This document shows, piece by piece, positions 1 to 16,628 of a stretch of 64,000 nucleotides of DNA. Both the position numbers and the translations under genes were made by a program. The DNA is from Blastocatellia bacterium. Its GTDB lineage: Bacteria > Acidobacteriota > Blastocatellia > Chloracidobacteriales > JADJPF01. The DNA lies in the NCBI GenBank assembly GCA_025057015.1, contig JANWYG010000010.1, positions 280,506 to 344,505 of the forward strand, in the 5' to 3' direction. The first letter of the stretch is position 1; each line of letters opens with the position of its first letter. The notes beneath the pieces are model-generated. The model was not told where the DNA came from. It saw nothing but the letters and a program-made list of their open reading frames with translations, and made no database searches.

Positions 1-1014
1 CTACTAAATGAAAGTAATTTACTGTCCTCGGTTTTGAATACTGAAGTCGAGGGTGTAGTAGCTTGTGATCTGCTTGGACGTGTCTTTATCTACAACAATA
101 CTTTAGTTGAGATGTTGTCTAAAGCAGGTCTTGAGTTAGATACAGAAAATGTGTTTAACACCGTTCATAGACTGGTCTGGGAAGACCAGAAACTGTTTAG
201 GGAAGAGTTAACCTATGCAGTGCTGCGTAATACGAAAGTTACGTTTCGAGTTAATATTGCCGAAGCTGCTTATAGTTTGATCGTTCGCCCTATAGTCGAT
301 CCTGAAAGCGAAGATGTGCAGCCACACGGACTAGTGCTAATCCTGCAGAACATCGAGGAACAAAGGCAAGCAGATAGCATGAAAGACAGTTTCATACACA
401 ATATCTTTGGGCAGCTACAGAATTATCTTACTCCTATAGTCGGCTATAGCGAGCTGCTTTGCGAGATTGGTTCTGAAGAAGAGCGACAAATAGCAAGTGT
501 TATTTATGAGAGAGCGAAAAAGTTAGCAGAATTGATAAATCGGGTATCACCTATAACTGACTCAGCCAGCGAAGTCACAAGTTCTGCGCAGCTAGAGGTT
601 TTACCAACTGATATGATCCAGTTGCTTACGCAGGTCATAAAGGAAGTGAGTTATGGTGCCTACAAGCGGCAGATAGAAGTACAATTTGAACATCCTAACG
701 TGATTAATTTCGTAGTGTGCCCTCGAAAAAAGCTTTATAGGGCTTTAGTTGACTGTCTGGAGTTCTTGATTGTCATCGCTCCCTCAGGAGCTACTATAAA
801 AGTGTCGCTTGTCGAAAAGACGGATGATGTAGAGCTAAGCCTCAGCGTAATCGATTTCAGCTTACCACAAGATTTGATGGACAAGATCTCAAGAGAAGCT
901 GGATCTAAGTTATTGGAAGTCGAGGCATTTATGCTTGCACAGGGCAATAAGTTCAGGCTAGATTACGGTAGCCATATGACTGTACAACTAAATATTCAAA
1001 AAGGTTGGAACTGA
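1..1014 (+). CDS. PAS/histidine-kinase-like sensor, 5'-truncated, catalytically degenerate
   Basis: The reading frame is open from base 1, so the gene begins left of the window. A TTG at 34 lies inside a PAS-like segment and is not a plausible start. An N-terminal PAS-like fold (about the first 120 visible residues) is followed by a region aligning with a HisKA dimerisation helix ending in IVGYSELL. Where the usual H-box reads SHELRTPL, this protein reads FGQLQNYL, so the phospho-accepting histidine is replaced by glycine. The C-terminal half has an ATPase-like strand pattern, but the N-box asparagine and the glycines of the DxGxG motif are missing (VIDFSLPQ). It probably cannot autophosphorylate and may act as a sensory or scaffold partner of the response regulator one base downstream. 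The family assignment is from motifs only. Confidence 0.7.
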   Translation, partial: LLNESNLLSSVLNTEVEGVVACDLLGRVFIYNNTLVEMLSKAGLELDTENVFNTVHRLVWEDQKLFREELTYAVLRNTKVTFRVNIAEAAYSLIVRPIVDPESEDVQPHGLVLILQNIEEQRQADSMKDSFIHNIFGQLQNYLTPIVGYSELLCEIGSEEERQIASVIYERAKKLAELINRVSPITDSASEVTSSAQLEVLPTDMIQLLTQVIKEVSYGAYKRQIEVQFEHPNVINFVVCPRKKLYRALVDCLEFLIVIAPSGATIKVSLVEKTDDVELSLSVIDFSLPQDLMDKISREAGSKLLEVEAFMLAQGNKFRLDYGSHMTVQLNIQKGWN

Positions 1015-1015
1015 G

Positions 1016-1387
1016 ATGGAGTTTACAAAGTGGGTGTTGGTAGTGGACGATGATCCGATAGTGCGGAAGCTAATCTCGGTGGTGGCTAAGAGTTGCAACT
1101 TTGAAGTTGTGGAAGCAAATAACGGCAGGGAAGCTCTGGAGCTACTTAAAACTGATTACACTTATCTTCCTGATCTGATACTAGTTGACTTGTACATGCC
1201 AGAGATGGACGGAGCTAAGTACTGCCAAGCCTTACGTGATGAACTAGGGTATCCGCTCGAGCGGGTAGTAGTGATTTCGTCTGCTTCTATGAAAAAAGAC
1301 AGGGACCTGATAGCTTCTCTTGGAGTGAGAGATTTTTTGAAAAAACCGTTTTCTATGACTGACATTAGGAAATTGTTTCAGATTTAG
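1016..1387 (+). CDS. Single-domain response regulator (CheY-like receiver)
   Basis: This 123-residue protein is a complete receiver domain with no output domain. The acidic pocket is D11-D12-D13, the phospho-acceptor is D58 in LVDLYMPEMDG, the switch Ser is in VVISSAS, and the conserved Lys is K110 before P111. It starts one base after the stop of the degenerate kinase, so the two are almost certainly co-transcribed. All catalytic residues are intact, so it can be phosphorylated, but its neighbour cannot obviously do this. A different kinase must then act on it. It probably works by protein-protein contact, as CheY or Spo0F do. Its 3' end overlaps the convergent HEAT/PgsB-like gene by four bases. 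Confidence 0.9.
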   Translation: MEFTKWVLVVDDDPIVRKLISVVAKSCNFEVVEANNGREALELLKTDYTYLPDLILVDLYMPEMDGAKYCQALRDELGYPLERVVVISSASMKKDRDLIASLGVRDFLKKPFSMTDIRKLFQI

Positions 1388-4300
1388 GATTCCTTCTCCT
1401 TTGAACGCAACTGCTTTTTGAGCCAACCTCCTTTTTGCCTTACGGTCAACTCGCGAAGTATCGCCGCCGCTCTCTCGTGTGAGATAGTTTGTCGAGTGAG
1501 CTCTCTCAATACTAAATCAGCCTGTTTACGTCTACGCTTGCTGTCTTGACTTTCTAATAGTATTTCTAGCTTATCCAGCATTCGATCTACAAAGTTATTT
1601 TGAGATGCCTTGTTGGAAGCTTGTGTAGTAGCTTCTGCAGCTTGTAGAGCAGCCTTGAGCTTTTGTTGCATGCTAAAGATTTGGTTTATGGGGGATGCGA
1701 GAGCTGTTTTGATAGCTTCTATGGCGGCAGGCCTAGTAACAAGGCCGTATTCGTCGAAATAGATGAAAAAATCTGCTGCCTGACTGCGTTTTTTTTCGCT
1801 CGGATCGAGAAGTTGTCTACCCATTTCCTTAACACGTTCCAGCGCTACCCATCGATACACAAAATCTAGGCCGGTGCCTTTGATGTTCTGCATACCTATT
1901 ATGCGTAGCAAATAGTTTGGCGGGGAAGCTTCTGCTATCTTTAGTATGATCTCGTCACCAGTGGCATGAGCATCCTCTACGACCAAGAGTTTTGACAAAA
2001 ATACTTCTTTGAAAAATGCTCTGAAAAATTCATTTACTTGTAGTTCTGCTTCTTTGTTTAGCGCAGAGTTTATCATCTGTCTTATCTGTTGAATTGAGCC
2101 TAGTCGTTTGGTCCAGGTTCGGAAATGTTCGAGCGCTGATTGGCGCTGTTTTTCAGACAAGTTGGTCGTTTCAAGAGCGGAATTTACGATAGCCTCTGCG
2201 TCCAAGTTGTTGTTTAGCGCCTCTTTGAGAGTACTAGCCAACTGGTTATTTGCTAGCATTAAGGCGGTCTTAGTTGCTACCGCATCTACAGACACGGCCT
2301 CGGCCTTGAGTTCGGCTAAGCGTTCTTCGAGGGCTTTGTGAGCAGCCTGAATACGTTCAGCAGAAGGAGCTTCTGCCGCTGAGGCGTATAAGTCTATCGT
2401 TGGTAAGTAGTTATCGAGGGATTTGCGTATATAGCCCATCAGGCCGTTTAAATTAGTGCCTATGAGAACATGCTTGTGGGCGAAAGCGTCTCGTACTACC
2501 ACTTCAGCGAAGACTTGGGAACGAGGAATTCGGTCAGCTCGGTTGTTTACTACGGTGACTATCCATGTGCCGGGATCGCGCTCATCGGTATGGCCGGCAT
2601 GTCCTGCACGTCGCCAACTGTCATTAAACCCGCGTCGCTCGTTTGCTGACATAGCGTTGGAAAACTCTAGCGTACGATTTTCAACTACTACTTTTGGATA
2701 AGTCTTCAGCACTCCTAAATCGGGGACTATGTGATCGGCTATTTCCTTCAGAGCAAAGTCTCGGTCTATTTGAAAACGTTCTGCTAAGGTTAGCACCAAA
2801 GCTAAATTTCTAGGATGTACCTTGTAAGGAAAGCGGTCTAGGATGTCTTTCGTGAACATAGCACTTGCACGCCAAGGCACTTCATACAGCTTAGAGTTAT
2901 ATTTGCGTGCTGCGTCTCGCAAGATCGGAAGCATCTGATCTTCGCTTGTAATTACGGTCTTGCCTATCGGAATAAACTCTGTCATCACTCGCGGAATGTC
3001 TATACCTGCCGGACCTTGAACGTCCTCATGGTCAGGATAAGTGTTTGTCAGGGTTGCTAAATAGTCGTTCATCCAACCTCTTTGCAGAAGCCTTACAAAA
3101 CGAGGGTTAAGTGCCATACATTCCCATAAATAGACCTCTGCTTTAAGTTCGGCTGCTAGCTGGGCTGTAGTTCCCATTTCCCAAATAGACGCTTTGTCGT
3201 ATGGCCTGTAAAGGAATATTTCGGTGGCTTTTTGCTCAGCGGCAGTATGTAGAAACATAGCTTCGCAACCCGTGGTCTTACAAAAGACGTTGTAACCAAG
3301 CGCATGAAACAACGCAGCTTTCTTTCTTTCCGTTCCTGACTTGCCTCGTGTGCCCCAACCACCTATTATCAATGGAATTTTATTTAGTGCTCTACGTATA
3401 TTGTAAAATGTTACTATTTGTCGTAGTAAAAATATCAGCAGAATTATTGTAAAAAATACCCAAAGTTGTGACAGATTATTTGCTGAATGATCGGTCAAAT
3501 ATGCCTTAAACTGTTCGAAAAGTAAGTCGAGCGAGGGTATCATGGCTACAAACTGCGAAGTTTCGGCTAACTTTTTGCTGCTTATTGAAAAGAGCTTTTC
3601 TAGGGAAGGATCTTGCGGTGGGTTGGCTGTCGTTGCGTATGGTTGGTAGGTACAGTCTATGCCGTAACTACGTAGCGTCTCGATGTATTCTACAGGGCCT
3701 TCCGGATTCCTGCCGTCTAGGCCTACATTTCGCAAGTCAGCTACTTTTTCAAAATTCCAGCAAAGTTTCAGATAAGCTTTTGTTCGCTCCAAGGGTCGCA
3801 GCGATGAGCTTATGGTGGTGATGCCAAGCGTAGTAAAGATTCGTACCGGTGTCGTTCGCAGCAGTGCGTCCAGGCAGTCAGTGAGCAAGGGTACGAAAGG
3901 TCGCCAGCCGCCTTCGAGTTCGATAAAGAGAGGCTCGCCGGGTACTCGGGTTTTGGTAAGTTCTGCGAGAATCTGCGACGGAATACGTATCTGGCCAAAA
4001 GGTTTGCGTCCTACAGTATGTGAAGCGCCTTTGCGTTTGTCGGGAGCTGGATGTCGTGCTTCGTGTAGTAGCCGCCATAGGCTCTTGCCCCAACGCTCGC
4101 CGCGTTGGACTAGATAGCCGTCAGGCTTAGGCTCTATGAAATAGCCAAAGTCGTCTGCTGCGCGAAGTGCCAAAGCTCGCGCAAGCTGCTCTACACTGCA
4201 GCTCCGTAGCTCTTCAAATCGCAAAAGCAGCCTCTCCCCTTCGTAAAGGTTTGCTAGTTTTTCTATAATCTCGTCAAGTATTGGCTTTTCAGGTTGTAGC

Positions 4301-5610
4301 GATAAGTAAACCGCTTCGTAGGCGTTCCACGCAAGCCTGCGAAAGAAGACTTTTTCGTGAGGACTTTCTATGTAACTTTGAATATGTTCTAGCACTATCT
4401 GTGCTACTGCTGGCCTGCGCATAGCTATAGCAACAAGTTCTTCTAGCGCTGTGCGGCGTACGAGCAAGCTGTCGTCAGAAGAGATAGCCCTGTGGAGACT
4501 ATCTACCACTTGTCGAGTGTAAGCTTCATCAATAGTTAGCTTGGAGAGGCTTTCTAGAGCCGCTGCTCTTACTTGTTCACAAGCATGCGATTTTGTGCCT
4601 ATGTAAGCTGATAGTCTAGTAATTGCAGTAGTAGCAGGAAATAGTGCTAGCGCCTTTAGTGCTTCTATCTGAACATGCTCACTTGGGTCGTTGCGTAGTA
4701 TTTGCTCAATTAGCTGCAGTCCGGCTTCATTGACAAAATGCTTTCCTAGTAGCCGTACGATTGCTGCTCGTAGGAATAGCTCGTCGTTTAGCTTGGGGTG
4801 TCTTAGATACGATTCGAAAATTTCGAGTGCGTCTTCGGGATAGGTATTTACAAGAAGTTGCATGGCTTCTTTGCGCGTCCAAACTTCTTCTTGGCCGTCG
4901 TAGGCTACGCGTGTGACGAGGCGTACGGTTTGCGAGCTAAAAAGATTACGGCGGGAATCAGCGTCGATGTGCTCTATTATCGAGTTGTAAAAGCTTAGCG
5001 CACTTGCTCGCACAAACCAACCGTGACCATTTTCTATCCTGTCATTCAATATGTTCTCTAGGTTGTGACTCACAAGGAGAGTTCTTACTACTTTGTAGCG
5101 GGTTGTTGGCGAACTGAGCTGTTCTAAGAAATCTGTTACTAAGTGTGTGAGTACGTTTAACCCTTTCTCTTGAAACTTAGCTTCTTGTTCCAGAGCGAGT
5201 TTGTATCTTTCTATGACGAGGCTAATGTCGAGCCAGCGTGTCCTAATAGCACTGCGGTACTCGCGAAGTCTTGCGTTACTGCCATCTATTTCTAAAAGCA
5301 TCTCTAGCATCAGCTCAGTCTTTTCAACAGGATCGACGCAGTGGTGCATCCTTAGAGCGAAAGACTCGTATGCGTTACGTATATGCTGTTCTCTAACTAC
5401 GCCCTTGTTTACTGCAGAAAGTACGCGCAGGGCTAGCGATATGAGCTTGTCATCTTCTATCCAGTCTATTTCTTGTCTGCGACCGAGGCTAGTAAGTATG
5501 CGTTCAAGTATGTTTCTGCAAAGTAGGAGATCTAATCCTCCACGGGATCTTCCGAAAGCTTGTTCGATCAGTTCCCGCTCTTCTTGTGTTGTGTGCGTGT
5601 ATCTTACCAT
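1384..5610 (-). CDS. HEAT-repeat / transmembrane / PgsB(CapB)-type Mur-ligase fusion protein
   Basis: The protein has 1408 residues. About residues 150-480 are HEAT-like helical repeats. A single membrane segment lies near 715-737 (WVFFTIILLIFLLRQIV). Then comes a Mur-ligase-type domain matching PgsB/CapB of poly-gamma-glutamate synthase: GTRGKSG (phosphate loop), KTTGCEAMF, WECMALNP, NTYPDHEDVQGP, NAMSANE and NNRADRIPRSQ. Bacillus PgsB, as I recall it, has GIRGKS, KTTGTDA, SECMAVNP, EDHMDVMGP and NCRADRVDRTQ at the same places. PgsB-type enzymes activate a carboxylate with ATP and extend a gamma-linked polyamide. The roughly 300-residue C-terminal extension is helical and charged. It is the last gene of a three-gene operon and overlaps the preceding gene by seven bases. 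No PgsC/CapC-like small membrane partner is visible. The ligase fold is firm; the substrate is not known. Confidence 0.85.
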   Translation of the reverse strand: MVRYTHTTQEERELIEQAFGRSRGGLDLLLCRNILERILTSLGRRQEIDWIEDDKLISLALRVLSAVNKGVVREQHIRNAYESFALRMHHCVDPVEKTELMLEMLLEIDGSNARLREYRSAIRTRWLDISLVIERYKLALEQEAKFQEKGLNVLTHLVTDFLEQLSSPTTRYKVVRTLLVSHNLENILNDRIENGHGWFVRASALSFYNSIIEHIDADSRRNLFSSQTVRLVTRVAYDGQEEVWTRKEAMQLLVNTYPEDALEIFESYLRHPKLNDELFLRAAIVRLLGKHFVNEAGLQLIEQILRNDPSEHVQIEALKALALFPATTAITRLSAYIGTKSHACEQVRAAALESLSKLTIDEAYTRQVVDSLHRAISSDDSLLVRRTALEELVAIAMRRPAVAQIVLEHIQSYIESPHEKVFFRRLAWNAYEAVYLSLQPEKPILDEIIEKLANLYEGERLLLRFEELRSCSVEQLARALALRAADDFGYFIEPKPDGYLVQRGERWGKSLWRLLHEARHPAPDKRKGASHTVGRKPFGQIRIPSQILAELTKTRVPGEPLFIELEGGWRPFVPLLTDCLDALLRTTPVRIFTTLGITTISSSLRPLERTKAYLKLCWNFEKVADLRNVGLDGRNPEGPVEYIETLRSYGIDCTYQPYATTANPPQDPSLEKLFSISSKKLAETSQFVAMIPSLDLLFEQFKAYLTDHSANNLSQLWVFFTIILLIFLLRQIVTFYNIRRALNKIPLIIGGWGTRGKSGTERKKAALFHALGYNVFCKTTGCEAMFLHTAAEQKATEIFLYRPYDKASIWEMGTTAQLAAELKAEVYLWECMALNPRFVRLLQRGWMNDYLATLTNTYPDHEDVQGPAGIDIPRVMTEFIPIGKTVITSEDQMLPILRDAARKYNSKLYEVPWRASAMFTKDILDRFPYKVHPRNLALVLTLAERFQIDRDFALKEIADHIVPDLGVLKTYPKVVVENRTLEFSNAMSANERRGFNDSWRRAGHAGHTDERDPGTWIVTVVNNRADRIPRSQVFAEVVVRDAFAHKHVLIGTNLNGLMGYIRKSLDNYLPTIDLYASAAEAPSAERIQAAHKALEERLAELKAEAVSVDAVATKTALMLANNQLASTLKEALNNNLDAEAIVNSALETTNLSEKQRQSALEHFRTWTKRLGSIQQIRQMINSALNKEAELQVNEFFRAFFKEVFLSKLLVVEDAHATGDEIILKIAEASPPNYLLRIIGMQNIKGTGLDFVYRWVALERVKEMGRQLLDPSEKKRSQAADFFIYFDEYGLVTRPAAIEAIKTALASPINQIFSMQQKLKAALQAAEATTQASNKASQNNFVDRMLDKLEILLESQDSKRRRKQADLVLRELTRQTISHERAAAILRELTVRQKGGWLKKQLRSKEKES

Positions 5611-8600
5611 TCTTTCTTTACTGCGCGGTGATGGTAAGTGCGTAGTCTTTGCTGCTCGAAGTTTATCTCGTTTGGTAAGTAATCGTCAAAACCTCTACTT
5701 CTGTTGATATCGATGCTTAGACCGAAAGTAAAGACAGGCAGATCAAAACCGGTTACCCAGCGCAGGCCACCTTCTAACGCAAACCTTCTGCCGCTTGCCG
5801 TCCACCAGGAATAGTCAACCGACGTAGTTATGTCTTCTGTGCGATTGGGACGGCGCCTATGTCTATCTACGAAGCGATAAATCTGGCCAAAAGCAGTGTC
5901 GATTGATAGTCTGCCTTCCATAAGCACGTGTACCATTCGCAGGCGATAGCGTATTCTGTCAATGTCCAAAGGATTCAGGCTGCGGTTGGTTGTAGCGGTA
6001 AACTGGCCTGAGAACATTGTGTCTAGGAAGGGCGTGTAAGTGAGCGTTGTTCTGAAAGTTAGGCCCTGCGGATGATTAGTCAGAAAGGGGATAAATACTT
6101 GCCTGCTAATCTTTGCACGCTCTTCAGCAGAGATGCTTTTGAGCGTCTGCAGCACGTTGAAGTAAGCTAAGGAAGATCTTATCGTGAGATGCTTCTTGGG
6201 CAATTGAATACGATGAGTTAGACTGATGTCTGTTCTGAAGGATGCGGCCTGTTGTTGCGCAAACAGCCGTAGCCGTGCCGAAAGATCTAGCGTAGGTAGA
6301 CGCTTGATTAACTCAGCTTCAGAACGAAAAACGGCGCTGCCTGACGAAAGCGTTCTCTCGCCGAGTATGGCGCGTAGGTAAACAGAGCGAGGACTTAGCG
6401 CCTTTCTGTAAACTAAACCCTGTTCGATGAAGTTCTGACCACTCGTCGTCCTTACTCCATCAGCATCAAGCAAGGAAGCTCGCTCGCTGTCAGCAGTGAA
6501 GTAAAAGCTCAGCAGTCCCCTTGAGTTGGTAGCTGAGTCTAGCAGATAGTACCGCAGGCTTGGCATACTTGAGGGTTTAACTTGAGATGGTCGGCTGTAG
6601 TCTGTAAGCTGGTCTATGTTTAGACCTGAGATTTGCTGCGCCTCCTCTTCTTCCCAGAATCCGTTTCTGGCTTCATAGGCGAGTACTAGCAGTTGTCCGG
6701 CATCTGGGCGAACTTCTATCTGATAAAACTCGGTTTCGTTTAACTCAGGCAGTAGCACGAGTATGTCTGTTGTGTTACCGAGCGTTGCGTGCGGATCTTG
6801 GGGAATATAGGCTGTATTATTGTTGCCTTGAAGCAAATCAGCAGAAGTTTCTAAACCGTCGAGTATTAGTCCGCCTGCTTGCTTAGTGATTTTTAGGCTG
6901 ACCTTTCTAGCTGCAGGAGCGCCTTTTCTAATAAGAGCGCGTACCCGTAGCCGCATTACTCGCCGGTCCGTGTTGACTGCAACTGCTTCTTCGGGAGTAG
7001 CTACAAAGTGTTCTAGCTTTAGCGAAGGCTTAATAACGGTGCCAGTATCTTCTCGCTCAATATGTACTTGGGCATACCAAGTACCGTGTTGGCTTTCTTC
7101 GAGCCTTACCTTGAGCTCATGCTTGCCGGCTTCGAGGTCTATCTGTATCTGTCTGAATTCTCCGTTTGGTATCTGTAGCGACGCTTTGGGTGTAGAGTCT
7201 ACGAGCACTTCCAATTGTGCTGCATCGCTGCCTGTATTTAATCCTTGGACGTAGATGCTTAACTTTAGCCTTGCTGGGTGTGTCAAGTGAGTCGTAAGCT
7301 GAGCCGATTGGTTTTCTGAAATGATTTGGCCGGCTGGAAAGACGTTGGCAAGCAAGCTCTCTCGTACCCGACGGAATTTGTTTGAACTCTCAAAGCTTGT
7401 CAGTATAACTTGCTCAGTACCTGCGGACCTTATCGGATCAAGCCTGCGTTCCCAAGCAAGTCGGCTAAGAGCTTTAGCGGCAAGTTTTTCGTTTGGCGAT
7501 CTTAGCAGCGCTTCCACGGCGTCGTTTTGTGAAAGAAGTATCTCGACAAGTAACGTGCGGATAACGACGTCGTTCGTGCTAAGCCAGCTTTTACATAGCC
7601 GCACGGCAGACTCTTTGTCGCCTTCTTGTACGAAGGATTTTATTGCTGCTATTGTCAGATGATATTTGTTTTCATAAGAAGGAGCTAATTCAGCAGCTTT
7701 TTCTAAGGCTTTTGCATAGGTTAATCCTAGATGTTTTCTTAGTTCTGCAAGTAACAAATATCCTGGATATCCTAGCTCAGAGACGGACTCAAGGGCTTCG
7801 AGAGCCTCAACCTTGTCACCTAAGACGCGATATCTTGCTTCGATAGCGTCTACCGTATTCCAAATGCCTAGCCTTTCAAAGTCGAGATACGCTCGCGCCC
7901 ACCAAGCGTCGTCTCCGATTAGTATGTCGTAGTCGGTGACTACCATTGCTGAAGGTAAAACGAGCGCAGCTCCACCTATGCTAGTTATCTCATACTTATG
8001 AATGCCGAAAGGGACTTCTAGCTCTAGTGTTTCGGCTACACCGGGAACTATCCCTTGAAAGTCGGTGAAAGCTACTTCTTGGCTCGGCAAGTTGTCTGTT
8101 ATGGTGAATTCTTCTACTTGCCTGTTTTGTTGAGCTACAGAGATTTTCAGGGATATTGCTTTAGGCTTGGCTTCGCTGTGTACTGGTCTTATGCTTAGCT
8201 TAAGTATAGTAGGCCCTTCTACTTGAACTGTCAGTTGTCGGCTATTGTCTACAAGGTAGTGGTAGAGCGCTGAGCTCGTCTTACTTTTCAAGTTTATTTT
8301 AACTGCCGAAGTAAATTTGACTATTCTTACGGCAGCGGTCGTGAACTGCCTTCTAGTTGAACGTTTATACCATTTGTCGTTAAATCGAGCACAGCGGACG
8401 GAAAAATCGGTGCTGTAGTATTGCTGTCCAGCTTTGATCTGACGCCATTCGGCTTCTAGAGCTTCTGCTTCGTCTAGAGTTTTAAGCATCTGTCTGGCTT
8501 TTGGGCTGTCTACTGCTTGTAATAAGTTCCTGGCTTTTGAGTAAAGCCTGTCTTTGATAGCTTCTTCAGCAAGCAGGATGGATGTTTCCGGTAGCGAAGG

Positions 8601-9131
8601 TTCAAGTATTTCTAGAGCTTGGCTACGTTTTCCTTTTTCAGAAAGAATCTTTGCAAGTAGTAGTCTAACTTCGGGATCGTTGGGAGTAGCATCTTGCAAG
8701 CGCTTAGCTAAAGCCAGAGCTTCGTCATATTGACCGAAATCTAGGCGTAAGTAGGCTAGTGCTTGTAGTGCAGTCAGATTCTCGCCGAGGTCTAAAGCAG
8801 CTTCATACATTTCAGCTGCTTTGTGTAGCTGGCCGAATTTTTTGTAAAGTTTGGCAAGCATTAGTCTTGCTCTTTGGGCTTTGTCGTGAGCTAGGCCTAG
8901 AAGGAGTGCTTGTTCGAGATCGGTTCTTGCGGCTAGTAGATCGTCTAACTCGATAAGTAACTGAGCTCTATCGATGAGCAGTTGGCCACGTTCGGCTAGG
9001 TCTGAAACTCGTATTTCCTCGGTGAGTTGGCGTAGTTGTGCCAAACGAGCGAGGAAGTCATCTGAAAAAACTCTCTCGACTTTTGGTTTGTCAACTTGAA
9101 TTACTATGAATATTAGAAGGATCAGTTTCAC
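5604..9131 (-). CDS. Exported TPR protein with probable C-terminal outer-membrane beta-barrel
   Basis: The 1175-residue product starts with a hydrophobic segment (LILLIFIVI), followed by TPR-type helical repeats at about 40-250. A beta-rich module, a second helical repeat block and another beta-rich module come next. From about residue 862 to the end the sequence alternates polar and hydrophobic residues in strand-length units rich in Tyr, Phe, Arg and Thr, as in outer-membrane barrels. The start is a GTG at 9131-9129 preceded by a strong GGAGGAG site on the minus strand; it overlaps the upstream stop in the four bases GTGA. This layout resembles periplasmic scaffold-plus-porin proteins used in polysaccharide export (BcsC or PgaA style), but I see no clear family match. 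Coupling to the PgsB-like gene suggests export of the polymer, by inference. Confidence 0.65.
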   Translation of the reverse strand: MKLILLIFIVIQVDKPKVERVFSDDFLARLAQLRQLTEEIRVSDLAERGQLLIDRAQLLIELDDLLAARTDLEQALLLGLAHDKAQRARLMLAKLYKKFGQLHKAAEMYEAALDLGENLTALQALAYLRLDFGQYDEALALAKRLQDATPNDPEVRLLLAKILSEKGKRSQALEILEPSLPETSILLAEEAIKDRLYSKARNLLQAVDSPKARQMLKTLDEAEALEAEWRQIKAGQQYYSTDFSVRCARFNDKWYKRSTRRQFTTAAVRIVKFTSAVKINLKSKTSSALYHYLVDNSRQLTVQVEGPTILKLSIRPVHSEAKPKAISLKISVAQQNRQVEEFTITDNLPSQEVAFTDFQGIVPGVAETLELEVPFGIHKYEITSIGGAALVLPSAMVVTDYDILIGDDAWWARAYLDFERLGIWNTVDAIEARYRVLGDKVEALEALESVSELGYPGYLLLAELRKHLGLTYAKALEKAAELAPSYENKYHLTIAAIKSFVQEGDKESAVRLCKSWLSTNDVVIRTLLVEILLSQNDAVEALLRSPNEKLAAKALSRLAWERRLDPIRSAGTEQVILTSFESSNKFRRVRESLLANVFPAGQIISENQSAQLTTHLTHPARLKLSIYVQGLNTGSDAAQLEVLVDSTPKASLQIPNGEFRQIQIDLEAGKHELKVRLEESQHGTWYAQVHIEREDTGTVIKPSLKLEHFVATPEEAVAVNTDRRVMRLRVRALIRKGAPAARKVSLKITKQAGGLILDGLETSADLLQGNNNTAYIPQDPHATLGNTTDILVLLPELNETEFYQIEVRPDAGQLLVLAYEARNGFWEEEEAQQISGLNIDQLTDYSRPSQVKPSSMPSLRYYLLDSATNSRGLLSFYFTADSERASLLDADGVRTTSGQNFIEQGLVYRKALSPRSVYLRAILGERTLSSGSAVFRSEAELIKRLPTLDLSARLRLFAQQQAASFRTDISLTHRIQLPKKHLTIRSSLAYFNVLQTLKSISAEERAKISRQVFIPFLTNHPQGLTFRTTLTYTPFLDTMFSGQFTATTNRSLNPLDIDRIRYRLRMVHVLMEGRLSIDTAFGQIYRFVDRHRRRPNRTEDITTSVDYSWWTASGRRFALEGGLRWVTGFDLPVFTFGLSIDINRSRGFDDYLPNEINFEQQRLRTYHHRAVKKEW

Positions 9132-11497
9132 TCTGTCTCCTCCGACAAAGTGCGTCGAGTAGTACGGATAGAAAAGTTTACCAAAGCTTGTGCGTTATCG
9201 ATCGAGCGTAGCAAAATGCGATGTCTTGCAGCAGGTATCGGGACGATGACTTCATGGGCTGTGGATAGGTTTTCAGCAGATATCGAGTCATAGGTAGAGC
9301 AGTCTAGGAAGAACTTTTCGGCAATGCTGCCATCGATGAGAAGTTCAACTTCCGCAGGCTCGTTTGTCTTAAAGAGTATCCTTGCATAGCTGAGTAATTC
9401 ATCATCTCTCGTGAGGAAGCCTATTGGCTGTCGAAGAGATAGGTAACTACGGCGTGCATATTTGAGAAGCGGTATTTCTATGTCTTTAGCTATTACGTCG
9501 TTCAAGGGAGGATGATCTAGGAAGACTGATATAGGCATTTCGGAGCTTATTTTTAGCTCGTGTATGGTTCTGGACAGGCTTAGTTCGATGTACTGTACGG
9601 ACTTGTAGATTAGCGGTTGCGTAACTAGCGAGCCGTCTACATGAATCTTTATTTCAAAGAGTAAGTCGTGGCGGTGTGATACGCGAAAGGCTAGTTTGTG
9701 GGGTGTTTCAGGCTGCTCGAAGGGATTCCTAAGGTCTATTTTGAAAGATTTTCCGACGGGGACTTGATAGAAGAAGGGATCGTTGACATAGTCAACAGAT
9801 AGCAGTAGCTGTGGGCAGCGCAGGGCTTCTTGTTGCTGAGGGAGTGGGATAAAGTCAAGGGTTGCTAGGCTAATTTGCGAGGAATTCATTTCCGGGCGTG
9901 TTTCTTGCCAATACGTGAATCCATCCCAAGCAAGCTGTCGTAGGCTGCGTAGTTCAATATTTGACGGAGCCATTTCTAAAGCGCGATCGAGTGTTGCTAT
10001 GAAGACAGGATTGATTAGATCCTCGTTTGGCATCCAGAGCGAAGCTGATGCATAGAGAAGAGCTAGTTCAGTATCTCTTGGATCTAGTGCAGATGCGTTT
10101 TGTAGCAACTTGACAGCGTCCTTGTGGTTGTTGAGCACTCTCAGTAGAAAGGCACGCTGTAGGGCTAGTTCTATGGCAAATGCGGTTTCTTGCGGCGATA
10201 GAGCAAATGGTAGTTCGAAGTTAAGAACTTGCAAGGCTTCTTCAAACAGTTGTTGTTCGCAGAGGACGCGTGAAAGCAGCAGCGCTACGGCTATCTTCGT
10301 TAAGCCTGAGGTTGTTGCAAATAAGTTACTTAGCTGGGACTGAACGTCTTTTCCAAGGCCTAGTTCTACTGAGGCGGCGGCAGCAACAAACCTTGCATTA
10401 TGGTCGTTGGGATAGGTAGCGAGATGAGCTTCGGCTTGGTCTTTTGCTTTTACAAACAATGTTGCTAAATCGTTGTTCTTTTCTCGCAGGTAACGGCGAA
10501 ACTCAGCTGTGCTAATAGCACAGTATATGTCTTCGTTACTGGCTATTTGCAGTTTATGTTTTCCTGGCGGGATAAATAGATATTCCCTGCAGGGCTTTGC
10601 CAGTGGTCGTTGCGATTGATCGAGAACGAGACCACAAGCATCGTCTAGTCTAGTTGTTAGAAACAGTTTATTGACGAATCGCTCGTCGATGAATAGCTCA
10701 AGCGCGTAGTTTAGGACCTCATGGGGAGGGGTTTTGGTATAAACTAACCGCGAGGTTATCTCTACGAGTTTAGGCCCTTCGATGATGAATTCTCTGGTAT
10801 GTCTTATTGGGAAGTAATTTTTTCCGTCTAGTACGAGGCTGTCTCTATCAGTGGTAGAGAGCGGTGTCAGAGCAGTCTGTTTTGTTTTGAGCAGGTCTAG
10901 CCTTAGCTTAGCCTTGAGGTAATTTATCTCGTAGTCCGTAGAGGCAGGCCGTGGAAGCGTTATGAGCTGACGGCGATAGAAGCTCCGCCATTTATCGCCG
11001 GGCTCTAGTTTTTGCCAGATATTGCAGGAACGATCTTGCCACTTTGTAATAGCCTTTTGTGCTTGTGTTTCTATAGTGTCGGTGTAAAACGGTAAATCTT
11101 CTCTGACGAGATATTCGCAGATTAACTTCAATTCGGCATCTGATTGCAGCAGGTAAGTAGGTCTATTTATCCATCTTGGGGGAGTAATAAGCAGGTATTC
11201 GTTGTGTGCTTCAACTTCCTTGGGTATTAACTTTCCACCGTCGAACAAGCGGAATATGGTTAGGGATTTTAGTCTACCAGAGGTAGCTTTAACGCGAAGA
11301 AGCTCGTTGATAGGTGCGCTGATAATTGCCGAGGATTTGCTAGAGATATCTATCGAGGAAGAGGCTATGTTTTCAGTATGCCGAGTTGAGTTATGGATTT
11401 TAGTATGAGTTTCTATTGGCTGCCAGAAAGTTCTTCCAGTAAGTAGCAGCGGATCGTCATATATAAGCGAGCTAAGGACTAAGATAGCTAAAAGCAT
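9128..11497 (-). CDS. Exported TPR / beta-sandwich protein, function unknown
   Basis: The 789-residue protein has a short signal peptide (MLLAILVLSSLIY). The N-terminal 330 residues are beta-rich and contain a segment (EGPKLVEITSRLVY) that resembles a segment of the next gene's product (VEGPTILKLSIRPV), so the two probably share a domain. TPR-like helices occupy about 340-540 (for example YPNDHNARFVAAAASVELG and LDPRDTELALLYASA). The C-terminal 230 residues are again beta-rich. It is the first gene of the operon and is transcribed away from the cyanophycinase-like gene. I do not recognise a named family. It is probably a periplasmic scaffold or polymer-binding partner of the barrel protein. 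Confidence 0.6.
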   Translation of the reverse strand: MLLAILVLSSLIYDDPLLLTGRTFWQPIETHTKIHNSTRHTENIASSSIDISSKSSAIISAPINELLRVKATSGRLKSLTIFRLFDGGKLIPKEVEAHNEYLLITPPRWINRPTYLLQSDAELKLICEYLVREDLPFYTDTIETQAQKAITKWQDRSCNIWQKLEPGDKWRSFYRRQLITLPRPASTDYEINYLKAKLRLDLLKTKQTALTPLSTTDRDSLVLDGKNYFPIRHTREFIIEGPKLVEITSRLVYTKTPPHEVLNYALELFIDERFVNKLFLTTRLDDACGLVLDQSQRPLAKPCREYLFIPPGKHKLQIASNEDIYCAISTAEFRRYLREKNNDLATLFVKAKDQAEAHLATYPNDHNARFVAAAASVELGLGKDVQSQLSNLFATTSGLTKIAVALLLSRVLCEQQLFEEALQVLNFELPFALSPQETAFAIELALQRAFLLRVLNNHKDAVKLLQNASALDPRDTELALLYASASLWMPNEDLINPVFIATLDRALEMAPSNIELRSLRQLAWDGFTYWQETRPEMNSSQISLATLDFIPLPQQQEALRCPQLLLSVDYVNDPFFYQVPVGKSFKIDLRNPFEQPETPHKLAFRVSHRHDLLFEIKIHVDGSLVTQPLIYKSVQYIELSLSRTIHELKISSEMPISVFLDHPPLNDVIAKDIEIPLLKYARRSYLSLRQPIGFLTRDDELLSYARILFKTNEPAEVELLIDGSIAEKFFLDCSTYDSISAENLSTAHEVIVPIPAARHRILLRSIDNAQALVNFSIRTTRRTLSEETE

Positions 11498-11633
11498 AGG
11501 CTTTAAGCATAGACGCTGTTTTCTATAAACTCAAGGCTTGACTTGAGCTGCAGGTTTGGTGGCAGATTGTAGAGTTAAACTTAGTTAGGGATTTATAATT
11601 CTTATCCATCACTTAAGGTGGGATTAGGGGCTG
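11498..11633. promoter_or_regulatory. Divergent intergenic region of the polyamide locus
   Basis: These 136 bases separate the start of the minus-strand TPR/barrel/ligase operon from the plus-strand cyanophycinase-like gene. Promoters for both must lie here or just inside the genes. I see no clear pair of -35/-10 boxes. A purine-rich stretch (AAGGTGG near 11614, AGGGG near 11626) precedes the ATG at 11634. Confidence 0.45.
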
Positions 11634-12440
11634 ATGTCTAAGGGTAGGTTTTTTCTAGTAGGCGGTGGGCCGGCGGCTCGCACTTTAGGCGAGCCGTTTA
11701 TGGGTGTGGTAATTGAGGCTGCAGGTGGCAGCAAGTCGCGTCTTGCACTTATTACGGCGGGTTCGGACGATCCCGCCGATGTAAATGCTTGTTACTGGGA
11801 AATCTTTTCTGCTTTGGGAGTAAAGCACATCTTCTCACCTAAGATCTTTTCCAGAAGCGATGCTAACGAACGGTGGGTTGCAAATTCGATAGCTGACTGC
11901 AACGTTGTCTTCATAGCTGGAGGGGCACAAGCGAAGCTTCTCGACAAGATAGCAGGAACTTTGACTGAGAAAGCATTCAAATATGTCTATGAAGCTGGAG
12001 GAATATTGGCCGGAACTTCTGCTGGTTCGTCCATCTATACCTGTCCTGTGATAGTGGAAGGTGGGACGCAGAACCGTCATCTACGCAGAGGAATGATAGA
12101 AGTTCGTCGCGGTTTTGGCATTATCGAAGGGCTTGCCATAGATACGCATTGTTCCTCGCGTGGACGCTTGCCGCGGCTAGTCTCGCTACTGATAGAGCAG
12201 CCGGGAATTCAGGCCATAGGCATAGATGAAGATACTGCGTTGTTTATAGATGAGAACGGTGTTGCTGAGGTGTTGGGCTATAACGCTGTCTATATACTGG
12301 ATGCTAAAAACAGCACAGCGGCACACGATGATGTAATAGAGGAGGACGGGCATCTTTGCACGAGCGGTATTACGCTTCATTGCCTTATGAACGGTGATAA
12401 ATATCACATAGGTCTGAGGAGGCCTTGTAAATCTGCTTAG
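11634..12440 (+). CDS. Cyanophycinase-family peptidase (S51)
   Basis: The 268-residue protein matches the S51 serine peptidases that cut beta-linked or otherwise unusual peptide polymers. The nucleophile is S129 in GTSAGSS, a glutamine follows the GG of GGAQ (Q99), and the segment D170-T-H...RGRLPRL followed by GIDEDTA is characteristic of cyanophycinase. In canonical cyanophycinases, as I remember them, this segment reads DQHF.QRGR. Here T171 and two serines replace those glutamines, so the preferred polymer may differ from cyanophycin. There is no signal peptide, so it acts in the cytoplasm. It is transcribed divergently from the operon with the PgsB-like ligase, which suggests the two make and recycle the same polymer. 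It overlaps the convergent acpH by four bases. Confidence 0.85.
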   Translation: MSKGRFFLVGGGPAARTLGEPFMGVVIEAAGGSKSRLALITAGSDDPADVNACYWEIFSALGVKHIFSPKIFSRSDANERWVANSIADCNVVFIAGGAQAKLLDKIAGTLTEKAFKYVYEAGGILAGTSAGSSIYTCPVIVEGGTQNRHLRRGMIEVRRGFGIIEGLAIDTHCSSRGRLPRLVSLLIEQPGIQAIGIDEDTALFIDENGVAEVLGYNAVYILDAKNSTAAHDDVIEEDGHLCTSGITLHCLMNGDKYHIGLRRPCKSA

Positions 12441-14102: not shown

Positions 14103-16628
14103 TTACTCAACCTCTCTGACACATCTAAAGCCTACTGTGGAGTAATCTGCTCCGGTAGGTGGTAGCCACGTGCGGTAAGTAGCCCTCGCTCGTGCTGCTT
14201 CAGTTTTGTAATCTCCTCCTTTTATTACCTTTTGTACTCCGGTAGGAGTTTGGCAGCCGAGGCCGGCGGGCGGTATGTAATCACTGGATGTCCATTCAGC
14301 GGCATTTCCTATCAGGTCACTCATACCGAAACTATTTTCGCCTTGCCTAAACGTTCCGACGTCCACCAGTTTACCTCGCCCAGCCTCTTTAGTATTGGCT
14401 ACAGGTTTCCATTCGTTGCCCCAGGGATAGAGCTGAGAGGAACCGTTACGTGCTACAAATTCCCATTCTTCTTGTGTGGGCAGACGGTATGTTTTACCGG
14501 TCATCTTGCTACGCCAGTTGCAGTAATCGACACAATCTTGCCAACTTACTCCTACGACTGGTAGATCACCTTCGCCTGAAGGGTATTTACCGTCCTTCCA
14601 GCCTGAGGGAGGAGCGTGTTTTGTTGCATCTACGAAGTCTTTGTATCTGCGGTTAGTCACTTCATATTTATCTATCAGGAAAGGCTTAATTTCCACTACC
14701 CGCTCTTCCTCTATGCAAGGGTTGCCTTGCTTATTGCCTACTTTAAAGCTACCGCCAGGTATGTAGGCCATGCCTTCGGGTATGAACAAGTTAGTTTTCT
14801 GCGTAGTAGTGGGAGGAGGGGTTTGTTTGGAGACGGGAGGTGGTGGGTAGAGAACTTTTTGTTGTACTTGATCCTCTTTGCTAGAAAAGTAAAAGTAGCC
14901 GAGGCTTAGGAGTGCTATGGTGACGAGTCCTATTAGAACTAGTTTGAGAATGAATACTTTGTTCGTATTCGTGGCACTACCGGCATACTGAGCTGTTGTT
15001 GGCGTACGAGGGGGAAGATGCTGTACAGCGGCTTTAGGTTTGTCGAGGCTTGCTAGCGGAGAAGGGTACTCTAATTGTTTGAGTCTGGCGGCTTCTGCGC
15101 GTTTAGCTAGGACTTCGGCTTGAGTAGTAATGGTTTCTGAGACACTGATGAGCAAGTCTTCTACCATTTCTGGTAGAGCCAATGAAAACTCCTCTGCGAT
15201 TTCCATTGCTTCTGCCACTGCAGGCAATTGAGTAGGAGTTGAGACAGGCGTTTTTGGTTGATCTGTTTGCACTTTGCTTTGTGCTGTCCTTGCAGAGGCT
15301 GGGATGTCGGGTAGGACAGGGGAGTGTGATTTTGCTGCCGATATTTCTTGTCTTAAATCGTCTCCTGAGAGGATTATAGTACTAGCAGGTTGCGAAGATA
15401 CTTCGTCCGGTAGCAGTGCTTGCATTGGTGTGGTTAAAAATGGAGTTCTTGCACTGGCGGGAAGGGGTTCAGGAGCTGGTTTTTCTGTAGTTGGTGGAGG
15501 AAGTGGTGAAGCCGAGATTTTGCCAGCAGTGTCAGGCGATTTCTCAGTAGCTGGTGGGGGAGGTGGAGGAGGTGGTGCAAACTGTTTCAAGAGCTCGGGT
15601 TGTATTTCTGGGTCGAGCGGGGCTGTTGCATCTGTCGGTTTTGGAGCAGGCTTTGTTACGATGATTGGGCTATCTACCTTCATGCCGCTTATAGCGGCCT
15701 CGAGCTCGCGGCGTAGCTCCGTAGCAGTTTGTTGTCTATCGTTCGGATCTTTGAGTAGCGCTTTGAGGACTACTTGTTCCAGCTGTGGGTTAATATCTGG
15801 GCGATGTTTTCTAAGTGGAGCTGGAGGTACGGAACAGTGCATTTTGACTAGTCCCCAAGGAGTCTGTGCTCTGAAGGGCACTTTGCCAGCCAACATCTCG
15901 TAGAGGATGATACCCAGCGAGTAGATATCAGAGCGGATGTCTAGTTGGCGTCCGTCGCACTGCTCTGGGGACATGTAGTAAGGTGAGCCTAGGATTGCCC
16001 CACCTACTGTGATGTTTTCGGTATAGCCGGGAGTTTGGCTGAGTTTTGCTATGCCAAAATCTAGTACACGAACAATTTCTTCACCACTATCTTCGTGGGT
16101 TTCTACCATTATATTGTCGGGCTTAAGATCTCTGTGTATGATTCCTTTGCGGTGAGCAGCAGCTACGGCATCGCAGACTTGGGAGATTAGCTTGACGGTT
16201 CTGACTTGTCCCATTTGCCCTTCGCTTTTGATTATCTCCCGAAGAGACTTGCCTTCGATGAGATCCATAACAAGGTAGGCAAGTCCGTCAGAAGTGATGC
16301 TGAAGTCGGTAATAGCTATGGCGTTAGGGTGGCGGATAGCTCCGGCAGCGTTTGCTTCATTTTGGAAGCGTTTCCTGGCCTGATCGTCATTAAACAGCTC
16401 GCGTTTTAGGACTTTGACTGCAAACTGTCGGTTGAAGTTAACATGTCGTGCTTTGTATACGACACCCATACCGCCCTTACCTATGACTTCTTCTATCAGG
16501 TACTTTCCACCTAGGACGGTGTTGATTAGCGGATCTTGCGCTACTATAGGAATCAAAGGGTGCCCGTCATTGGGACAAAAGTGCATCATATCGGAGAAGA
16601 TCTCGGGGCACTTTGGGCAACGTTTCAT
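14103..16628 (-). CDS. Ser/Thr protein kinase with C-terminal formylglycine-generating-enzyme-like domain
   Basis: The 841-residue protein opens with a zinc-ribbon-like element (CPKC...FCPNDGH). A complete Hanks-type kinase domain spans about 37-310: GKGGMGVVYKA (nucleotide loop), AVKVL (lysine), HRDLKPDN (catalytic loop), DFGIAKL (metal binding) and SPEQ (activation segment). A long Pro-rich, low-complexity linker leads to one membrane segment near 556-580. The C-terminal 230 residues form an FGE/sulfatase-modifying-factor domain (MAYIPGGSFKVGN, YEVTNRRYKDF, RLPTQEEWEFVAR, GFRCVRE). This domain lies outside the membrane in this topology and is often a ligand-binding C-type-lectin-like fold rather than an active enzyme. 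It is the first gene of the cluster running to acpH. It is probably a receptor kinase whose ligand is unknown. Confidence 0.93.
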   Translation of the reverse strand: MKRCPKCPEIFSDMMHFCPNDGHPLIPIVAQDPLINTVLGGKYLIEEVIGKGGMGVVYKARHVNFNRQFAVKVLKRELFNDDQARKRFQNEANAAGAIRHPNAIAITDFSITSDGLAYLVMDLIEGKSLREIIKSEGQMGQVRTVKLISQVCDAVAAAHRKGIIHRDLKPDNIMVETHEDSGEEIVRVLDFGIAKLSQTPGYTENITVGGAILGSPYYMSPEQCDGRQLDIRSDIYSLGIILYEMLAGKVPFRAQTPWGLVKMHCSVPPAPLRKHRPDINPQLEQVVLKALLKDPNDRQQTATELRRELEAAISGMKVDSPIIVTKPAPKPTDATAPLDPEIQPELLKQFAPPPPPPPPATEKSPDTAGKISASPLPPPTTEKPAPEPLPASARTPFLTTPMQALLPDEVSSQPASTIILSGDDLRQEISAAKSHSPVLPDIPASARTAQSKVQTDQPKTPVSTPTQLPAVAEAMEIAEEFSLALPEMVEDLLISVSETITTQAEVLAKRAEAARLKQLEYPSPLASLDKPKAAVQHLPPRTPTTAQYAGSATNTNKVFILKLVLIGLVTIALLSLGYFYFSSKEDQVQQKVLYPPPPVSKQTPPPTTTQKTNLFIPEGMAYIPGGSFKVGNKQGNPCIEEERVVEIKPFLIDKYEVTNRRYKDFVDATKHAPPSGWKDGKYPSGEGDLPVVGVSWQDCVDYCNWRSKMTGKTYRLPTQEEWEFVARNGSSQLYPWGNEWKPVANTKEAGRGKLVDVGTFRQGENSFGMSDLIGNAAEWTSSDYIPPAGLGCQTPTGVQKVIKGGDYKTEAARARATYRTWLPPTGADYSTVGFRCVREVE

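Follow-up and report, generated by a model that had tools for sequence, protein, structure and literature searches.

A PgsB/PgsC-type gene cluster of a Blastocatellia bacterium that probably encodes an envelope-spanning secretion system for an amino-acid polyamide

We analyzed a 64,000-nucleotide stretch of DNA from a Blastocatellia bacterium (bases 280506 to 344505 of contig C15, referred to as the window; genome of 3.33 Mb, 97% complete). A gene cluster running across the first base of the window probably encodes a synthase-dependent system that spans the envelope and secretes an amino-acid polyamide, with an amide polymerase of the PgsB/PgsC type. The cluster joins two known kinds of machinery, namely, the PgsB/PgsC-type polymerase and synthase-dependent secretion. 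It spans 20.9 kb in this genome, in which every part of the conserved system was found with profiles from relatives or by direct comparison. The original prediction for the window had proposed that an amide polymer is built at the inner membrane without PgsC, exported through a pair of tetratricopeptide repeat (TPR) and barrel proteins, and recycled by a cyanophycinase. The route of synthesis and export is favored by the PgsB core, the predicted barrel and the conserved gene order; the missing PgsC and the recycling by cyanophycinase did not hold up.

Results

An ORF check confirmed the four open reading frames (ORFs) that had been claimed at 1384-12440. Three of them lie on the minus strand, with neighbor overlaps of 7 and 4 bases. 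The first encodes HEAT-PgsB (1408 amino acids [aa]; 1384-5610, minus strand), which comprises an N-terminal helical/HEAT region, one transmembrane segment, a PgsB-type Mur-ligase domain and a C-terminal helical region. Searches against Pfam and NCBIfam bore out the HEAT repeats and PgsB domain predicted for this protein, as well as the TPRs predicted for the 1175-aa and 789-aa products of the two other genes. The best HEAT_2 match covers residues 301-392 (4435-4710, minus strand; Pfam, 3.5e-15). By hydropathy, the transmembrane segment occupies residues 709-739 (3394-3486, minus strand), just ahead of the ligase domain; in the relatives examined, a single transmembrane helix lies about 40 to 50 residues ahead of the P-loop, and the distance is about 45 in the window protein. 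The ligase domain itself (residues 721-1063; 2422-3450, minus strand) matches NCBIfam TIGR04012 at 2.7e-56 over profile positions 4-331 of 380 and carries the motifs GTRGKS (P-loop), KTTG, NTYPDH and RADR. Comparison with 30 canonical PgsB proteins of the same phylum revealed GxRGKS, TTG, NxxxDH, AN and RxDRxxR as common to both. Judging by these motifs, the PgsB catalytic core of HEAT-PgsB is intact. In the whole genome, no PgsB-like gene other than that of HEAT-PgsB matched strongly. In a tree, its ligase domain formed a clade apart from canonical PgsB on a long stem, but support at the separating node was low (0.16), and we thus rely on this tree for sequence distance only.

The claim that the locus is without PgsC was overturned, since a tandem-CapC protein (991 aa; C15:272947-275922, plus strand) is encoded on the same contig just beyond the window. 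PgsC had seemed to be missing because the window edge excluded its gene, which begins about 7.6 kb ahead of the window's first base and stops about 4.6 kb short of it. Its distance from the end of pgsB is about 6 kb, and the two genes are convergent. These coordinates correspond to positions 10948-13923 of L005, a separately numbered stretch of contig C15. A CapC family search of the genome gave two adjacent PF14102 matches in this single ORF (73 and 67 bits; cut-off, 27), and the protein did not reach the PgsC equivalog cut-off of NCBIfam (58.5 versus 96.45 bits). Beyond its membrane part, it is largely taken up by two degenerate versions of the exported amidase-like domain described below (hhalign, 5e-15 and 3e-14, both being single-template values). 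In an alignment, the invariant PH of the amidase-like domain reads PA or PR in the copies fused to tandem CapC. These degenerate domains are probably a binding module that arose from a former enzyme domain.

The two other minus-strand genes encode a TPR/barrel protein (1175 aa; 5604-9131) and an exported TPR protein (789 aa; 9128-11497). Profiles of the exporter and of the exported protein of the cluster were built from relatives, with the proteins of the window genome excluded. The 1175-aa protein matched positions 681-1714 of the fused-exporter profile (E = 5.7e-63) and the 789-aa protein matched positions from about 48 to 555 (E = 3.7e-13). As they are collinear with this profile, the two proteins represent the C-terminal and N-terminal halves of one exporter, in order; Methylovulum and Crenothrix likewise have the exporter as two proteins. 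An AlphaFold2 model of the 1175-aa protein, made with 27 relatives, showed a TPR superhelix (residues 24-257; 8361-9062, minus strand; also matched by Pfam TPR), two beta-rich domains and then 14 long strands. These strands form a predicted outer-membrane beta-barrel (residues 873-1141; 5709-6515, minus strand), so that the C-terminal barrel on which the original prediction had staked itself is indeed predicted. Within the barrel, block means of the predicted local distance difference test score (pLDDT) were mostly 80 to 96. The whole model reached a pLDDT of 70 and a predicted TM-score (pTM) of 0.42, and its domain arrangement is therefore unreliable. The best Protein Data Bank match of the barrel in Foldseek was the 14-strand porin OmpG (6e-7), and the polymer exporters PgaA (4Y25, 3.5e-6) and PelBC (9H80, 4.3e-6) ranked 11th and 12th.

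The plus-strand genes that converge on pgsB are, in order, those for a POT transporter, the tandem-CapC protein, an exported 700-aa protein, a 298-aa amidase-like protein, a CHASE2 sensor kinase and a response regulator. The exported 700-aa protein (L005:13916-16018, plus strand) was recognized by the profile from relatives (E = 1.9e-13) and had no family match in Pfam or NCBIfam. The next gene, identified by direct comparison with relatives, encodes an exported zinc-amidase-like protein (L005:16011-16907, plus strand). It matched PF05908 weakly (E = 0.013; 15.4 bits, below the cut-off of 22), and only 1 of 23 members of the amidase-like group matched this family at E < 0.1, so that Pfam assigns essentially no family. 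Residues H124, D128, H198 and E273 are nevertheless invariant in all 23. A model of the Marinobacter member (pLDDT 91) adopted a zinc-carboxypeptidase-like fold that matched Atu2144 (2ODF, 3e-5), which we take to be a relative of N-formylglutamate amidohydrolase, the M14 carboxypeptidase 4B6Z (5e-5) and aspartoacylase, with modest TM-scores of about 0.4. From this model, the protein is a plausible candidate for an enzyme cutting a polyamide, although it formally falls outside PF05908. Sequence searches returned no solved structure for the amidase-like protein, the ligase domain or the barrel. The CHASE2 sensor kinase (869 aa; L005:16911-19520, plus strand) starts outside the window and has its C-terminal part encoded at window positions 1-1014; the receiver-only response regulator (1016-1387, plus strand; Pfam, 1.5e-23) is the last gene of this convergent half-cluster.

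Scans for promoters and terminators gave matches at chance level. The guanine-plus-cytosine content of the cluster genes was 43 to 48%, compared to 46 to 49% in neighboring sequence, and base composition shows no sign of recent transfer of the cluster.

To assess the conservation of the system, the ligase domain was searched for in 84,980 species genomes. This yielded 185 confirmed relatives, and the best 80 (52 to 60% identical) were kept. These 80 come from Gamma-, Alpha- and Deltaproteobacteria, Nitrospirae, Planctomycetes, Holophagae and other Acidobacteriota, Poribacteria and Verrucomicrobia. The distribution is sporadic, since only 4 of 274 sampled genomes of the class of Halomonas carry HEAT-PgsB. 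A search with the full-length protein against 396 genomes of its own phylum recovered only itself at 1e-30; canonical PgsB of Acidobacteriota are open frames of about 395 to 530 aa. In plasmid records, PgsB-like matches were canonical only, with a coverage of at most 24%, and no match to tandem CapC was found.

Tandem CapC was present in 29 of 30 HEAT-PgsB carriers, invariably with both domains in a single ORF, and the sole carrier lacking it is a metagenome-assembled genome that may be incomplete. According to their coordinates, the two genes lie at most about 15 kb apart in most of these 30 carriers. One five-gene order on one strand was observed in 14 of 20 fetched clusters: capC2 (about 1085 aa), the exported protein (about 820 aa), the amidase-like protein (about 300 aa), the TPR/barrel protein (about 1740 aa) and HEAT-pgsB (about 1400 aa). 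Four of the other clusters had at least one gene hidden by the simple ORF caller, and two were rearranged. Among 50 loci whose flank was long enough, 34 had the TPR gene immediately upstream of pgsB. In Sulfidibacter, Holophagae and Acanthopleuribacter, the barrel is encoded further along the same cluster.

A short cluster was observed in Erythrobacter/Qipengyuania (L113, L115, L118 and L119), consisting of tandem CapC (about 848 aa), an exported protein (about 250 to 300 aa), the amidase-like protein and HEAT-PgsB. No barrel gene was detected for this form in the three genomes searched, and it may act in the periplasm or rely on another export route. In the window genome, PGA_cap (PgsA) proteins are encoded on other contigs, outside the cluster. 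In only two clusters, both of Acidobacteriota (L092, G420:C1:5255353-5256339; L099, G423:C30:71765-72748), the genes for tandem CapC and the barrel are separated by one for a large PGA_cap (PgsA-like) protein, indicating that PgsA-like parts join some clusters.

The cyanophycinase (268 aa; 11634-12440, plus strand; NCBIfam, 164 bits against a cut-off of 126.6), divergent from the minus-strand genes at a distance of 136 bases, had been proposed as a member of the unit that recycles the polymer in the cytoplasm. This was not supported, as no cyanophycinase occurred near any of the 80 related loci and its place is kept in a relative without the cluster. Indeed, a genome of the same family that lacks HEAT-PgsB (G011) carries a 52%-identical orthologue located 2.6 kb from the orthologue of a gene for a penicillin-binding protein, the two being separated by a single kinase gene. 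The cyanophycinase and penicillin-binding-protein genes flank the entire cluster in the window genome, indicating either a gain of the cluster between old neighbors or its loss from the relative. Four cyanophycinase-like matches were found in the window genome; another of them lies beside a full CphA encoded elsewhere (G000:C4:197367-200735, 1252 bits). We conclude that the adjoining cyanophycinase is a bystander; the hydrolase-like protein that the system does conserve is the exported amidase-like one, whose gene falls outside the window.

Discussion

In the system that we propose, HEAT-PgsB, held by its single transmembrane helix, would activate an amino acid with ATP. By analogy to PgsB-PgsC, tandem PgsC would be the membrane component of the polymerase, through which the growing chain passes the inner membrane. 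One or more TPR proteins would then lead the chain across the periplasm to the barrel as its exit, as may be supposed from PgaA, PelB and BcsC. Periplasmic chains could be trimmed or cleared by the exported zinc-amidase-like protein, as PgaB does for poly-N-acetylglucosamine (PNAG), and the degenerate amidase domains on tandem PgsC may grip the polymer without cutting it. The sensor kinase and the response regulator probably regulate the system. The most likely product is poly-gamma-glutamate (PGA) or a near relative. More tentatively, the cluster could be a separate, widespread Gram-negative amide-polymer machine whose product is an undescribed polyamide other than gamma-PGA, with the doubled PgsC and the dead amidase domains serving as a built-in guide; we consider this possible but less likely than not to be the case.

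Several points weigh against a polyamide secretion system. The evidence consists of genes and predicted structures. HEAT-PgsB stays below the PgsB equivalog cut-off (191 versus 222.7 bits), so that its substrate, and even polymerization, are only inferred. The protein has one transmembrane helix and no obvious signal peptide, so that its HEAT region may lie on either side of the membrane. Moreover, no recognizable barrel was found in the Erythrobacter-type loci or in Silicimonas, and the barrel is thus not universal.

Other explanations account for part of these observations. The short distance between pgsB and the divergent cyanophycinase would fit a PgsC-free route with cytoplasmic recycling, but tandem PgsC is present here and in nearly all relatives, the cyanophycinase is missing from the related loci and keeps its place beside the penicillin-binding-protein gene where HEAT-PgsB is absent, and CphA has a cyanophycinase of its own. 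This route was rejected on both of its distinctive points, PgsC being present and the cyanophycinase a bystander, and we regard it as highly improbable. The distinct clade of HEAT-PgsB, with its long branch and its score under the PgsB cut-off, would be easier to understand if the ligase added one or a few amino acids to an envelope molecule, for example, a peptide or a lipid-linked precursor, and if the TPR/barrel protein exported or displayed the conjugate. Mur ligases generally add single residues. However, the PgsB motifs are kept, PgsC-type proteins, which are known for polymer synthesis, are almost always alongside, and the system includes a barrel resembling those of polymer exporters together with an amidase-like protein; such a ligase is therefore unlikely here.

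Alternatively, an amide polymer might be retained in the periplasm or at the cell surface, for osmoadaptation or storage, with the barrel protein importing or anchoring it. The barrel-free Erythrobacter-type clusters suggest that synthesis may work without a barrel, the amidase-like protein is exported, and several carriers are halophilic or marine. Against this, the combination of TPRs and barrel is an exporter design, and its gene lies directly ahead of pgsB in most loci. We thus consider a retained polymer more doubtful still than a ligase adding few residues, and we favor a secreted polyamide.

The polymerase resembles PgsBCA/CapBCA of Bacillus, which is also found in Fusobacterium and in Cloacimonadota, the latter having an ordinary CapB-CapC-CapA operon (PMC13082233). 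The likeness lies in the PgsB-type Mur ligase motifs and in PgsC/CapC domains above the Pfam cut-off. In contrast to PgsBCA, PgsB is here about 1400 aa long with HEAT and transmembrane regions, PgsC occurs in double form in one protein with two degenerate amidase domains, and the window's cluster lacks PgsA and has its own TPR/barrel exporter and exported amidase-like protein. The periplasmic TPR scaffold and predicted outer-membrane barrel recall synthase-dependent exopolysaccharide secretion (PgaABCD, Pel, cellulose and alginate). BcsZ and AlgL are periplasmic polymer-cutting enzymes of the cellulose and alginate systems. The PNAG, Pel, cellulose and alginate systems encode together a synthase, a TPR scaffold, a barrel and a periplasmic polymer-modifying or polymer-cutting enzyme (PMC9384988, PMC5933820, PMC12141448), the latter being PgaB for PNAG (PMC5933820). 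Here, however, the synthase is an ATP-dependent amino-acid ligase and not a glycosyltransferase (Pfam/NCBIfam scans of the cluster proteins found no family-2 glycosyltransferase synthase), and the barrel is predicted to have 14 strands and is closest to OmpG. The amidase-like protein shares with PghP-type gamma-PGA hydrolases (PF05908) a weak match, a carboxypeptidase-like fold and the conserved H-D-H-E, but it remains under the Pfam cut-off, and its nearest solved folds are Atu2144 and M14 carboxypeptidases. The likeness to the cyanophycin system (CphA/CphB) is limited to the adjoining S51 cyanophycinase, since CphA lies elsewhere and has no tie to this system.

A full-text literature search, whose coverage leaves out most subscription papers and preprints, found no account of HEAT-PgsB or tandem PgsC, nor of a TPR/barrel protein that exports polymers of this kind. 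Published PGA surveys are without this architecture (PMC4497714, PMC5542703), and three gamma-PGA polymerase ORFs were noted in Novosphingobium PP1Y (PMC4059872). The known PgsBCA parts leave the passage of amino-acid polymers through the Gram-negative outer membrane unexplained. The complete, conserved parts list described here occurs in culturable genera (Halomonas, Marinobacter, Methylovulum and Desulfobacter), making the question directly testable. It suggests that the synthase/TPR/barrel/hydrolase plan of exopolysaccharide secretion also arose around a very different polymerase, and genes annotated for PGA in Gram-negative bacteria may fall into two different architectures.

Neighboring genes

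An L-asparaginase II gene (L005:3295-4320) and the POT oligopeptide transporter gene (L005:9420-10961) lie ahead of the cluster, and none of the 80 related loci showed either of them nearby. Past the cyanophycinase, window positions 14103-16628 encode a Ser/Thr kinase that begins with a zinc-ribbon-like region and has an FGE-sulfatase (formylglycine-enzyme-like) domain at its C-terminus.

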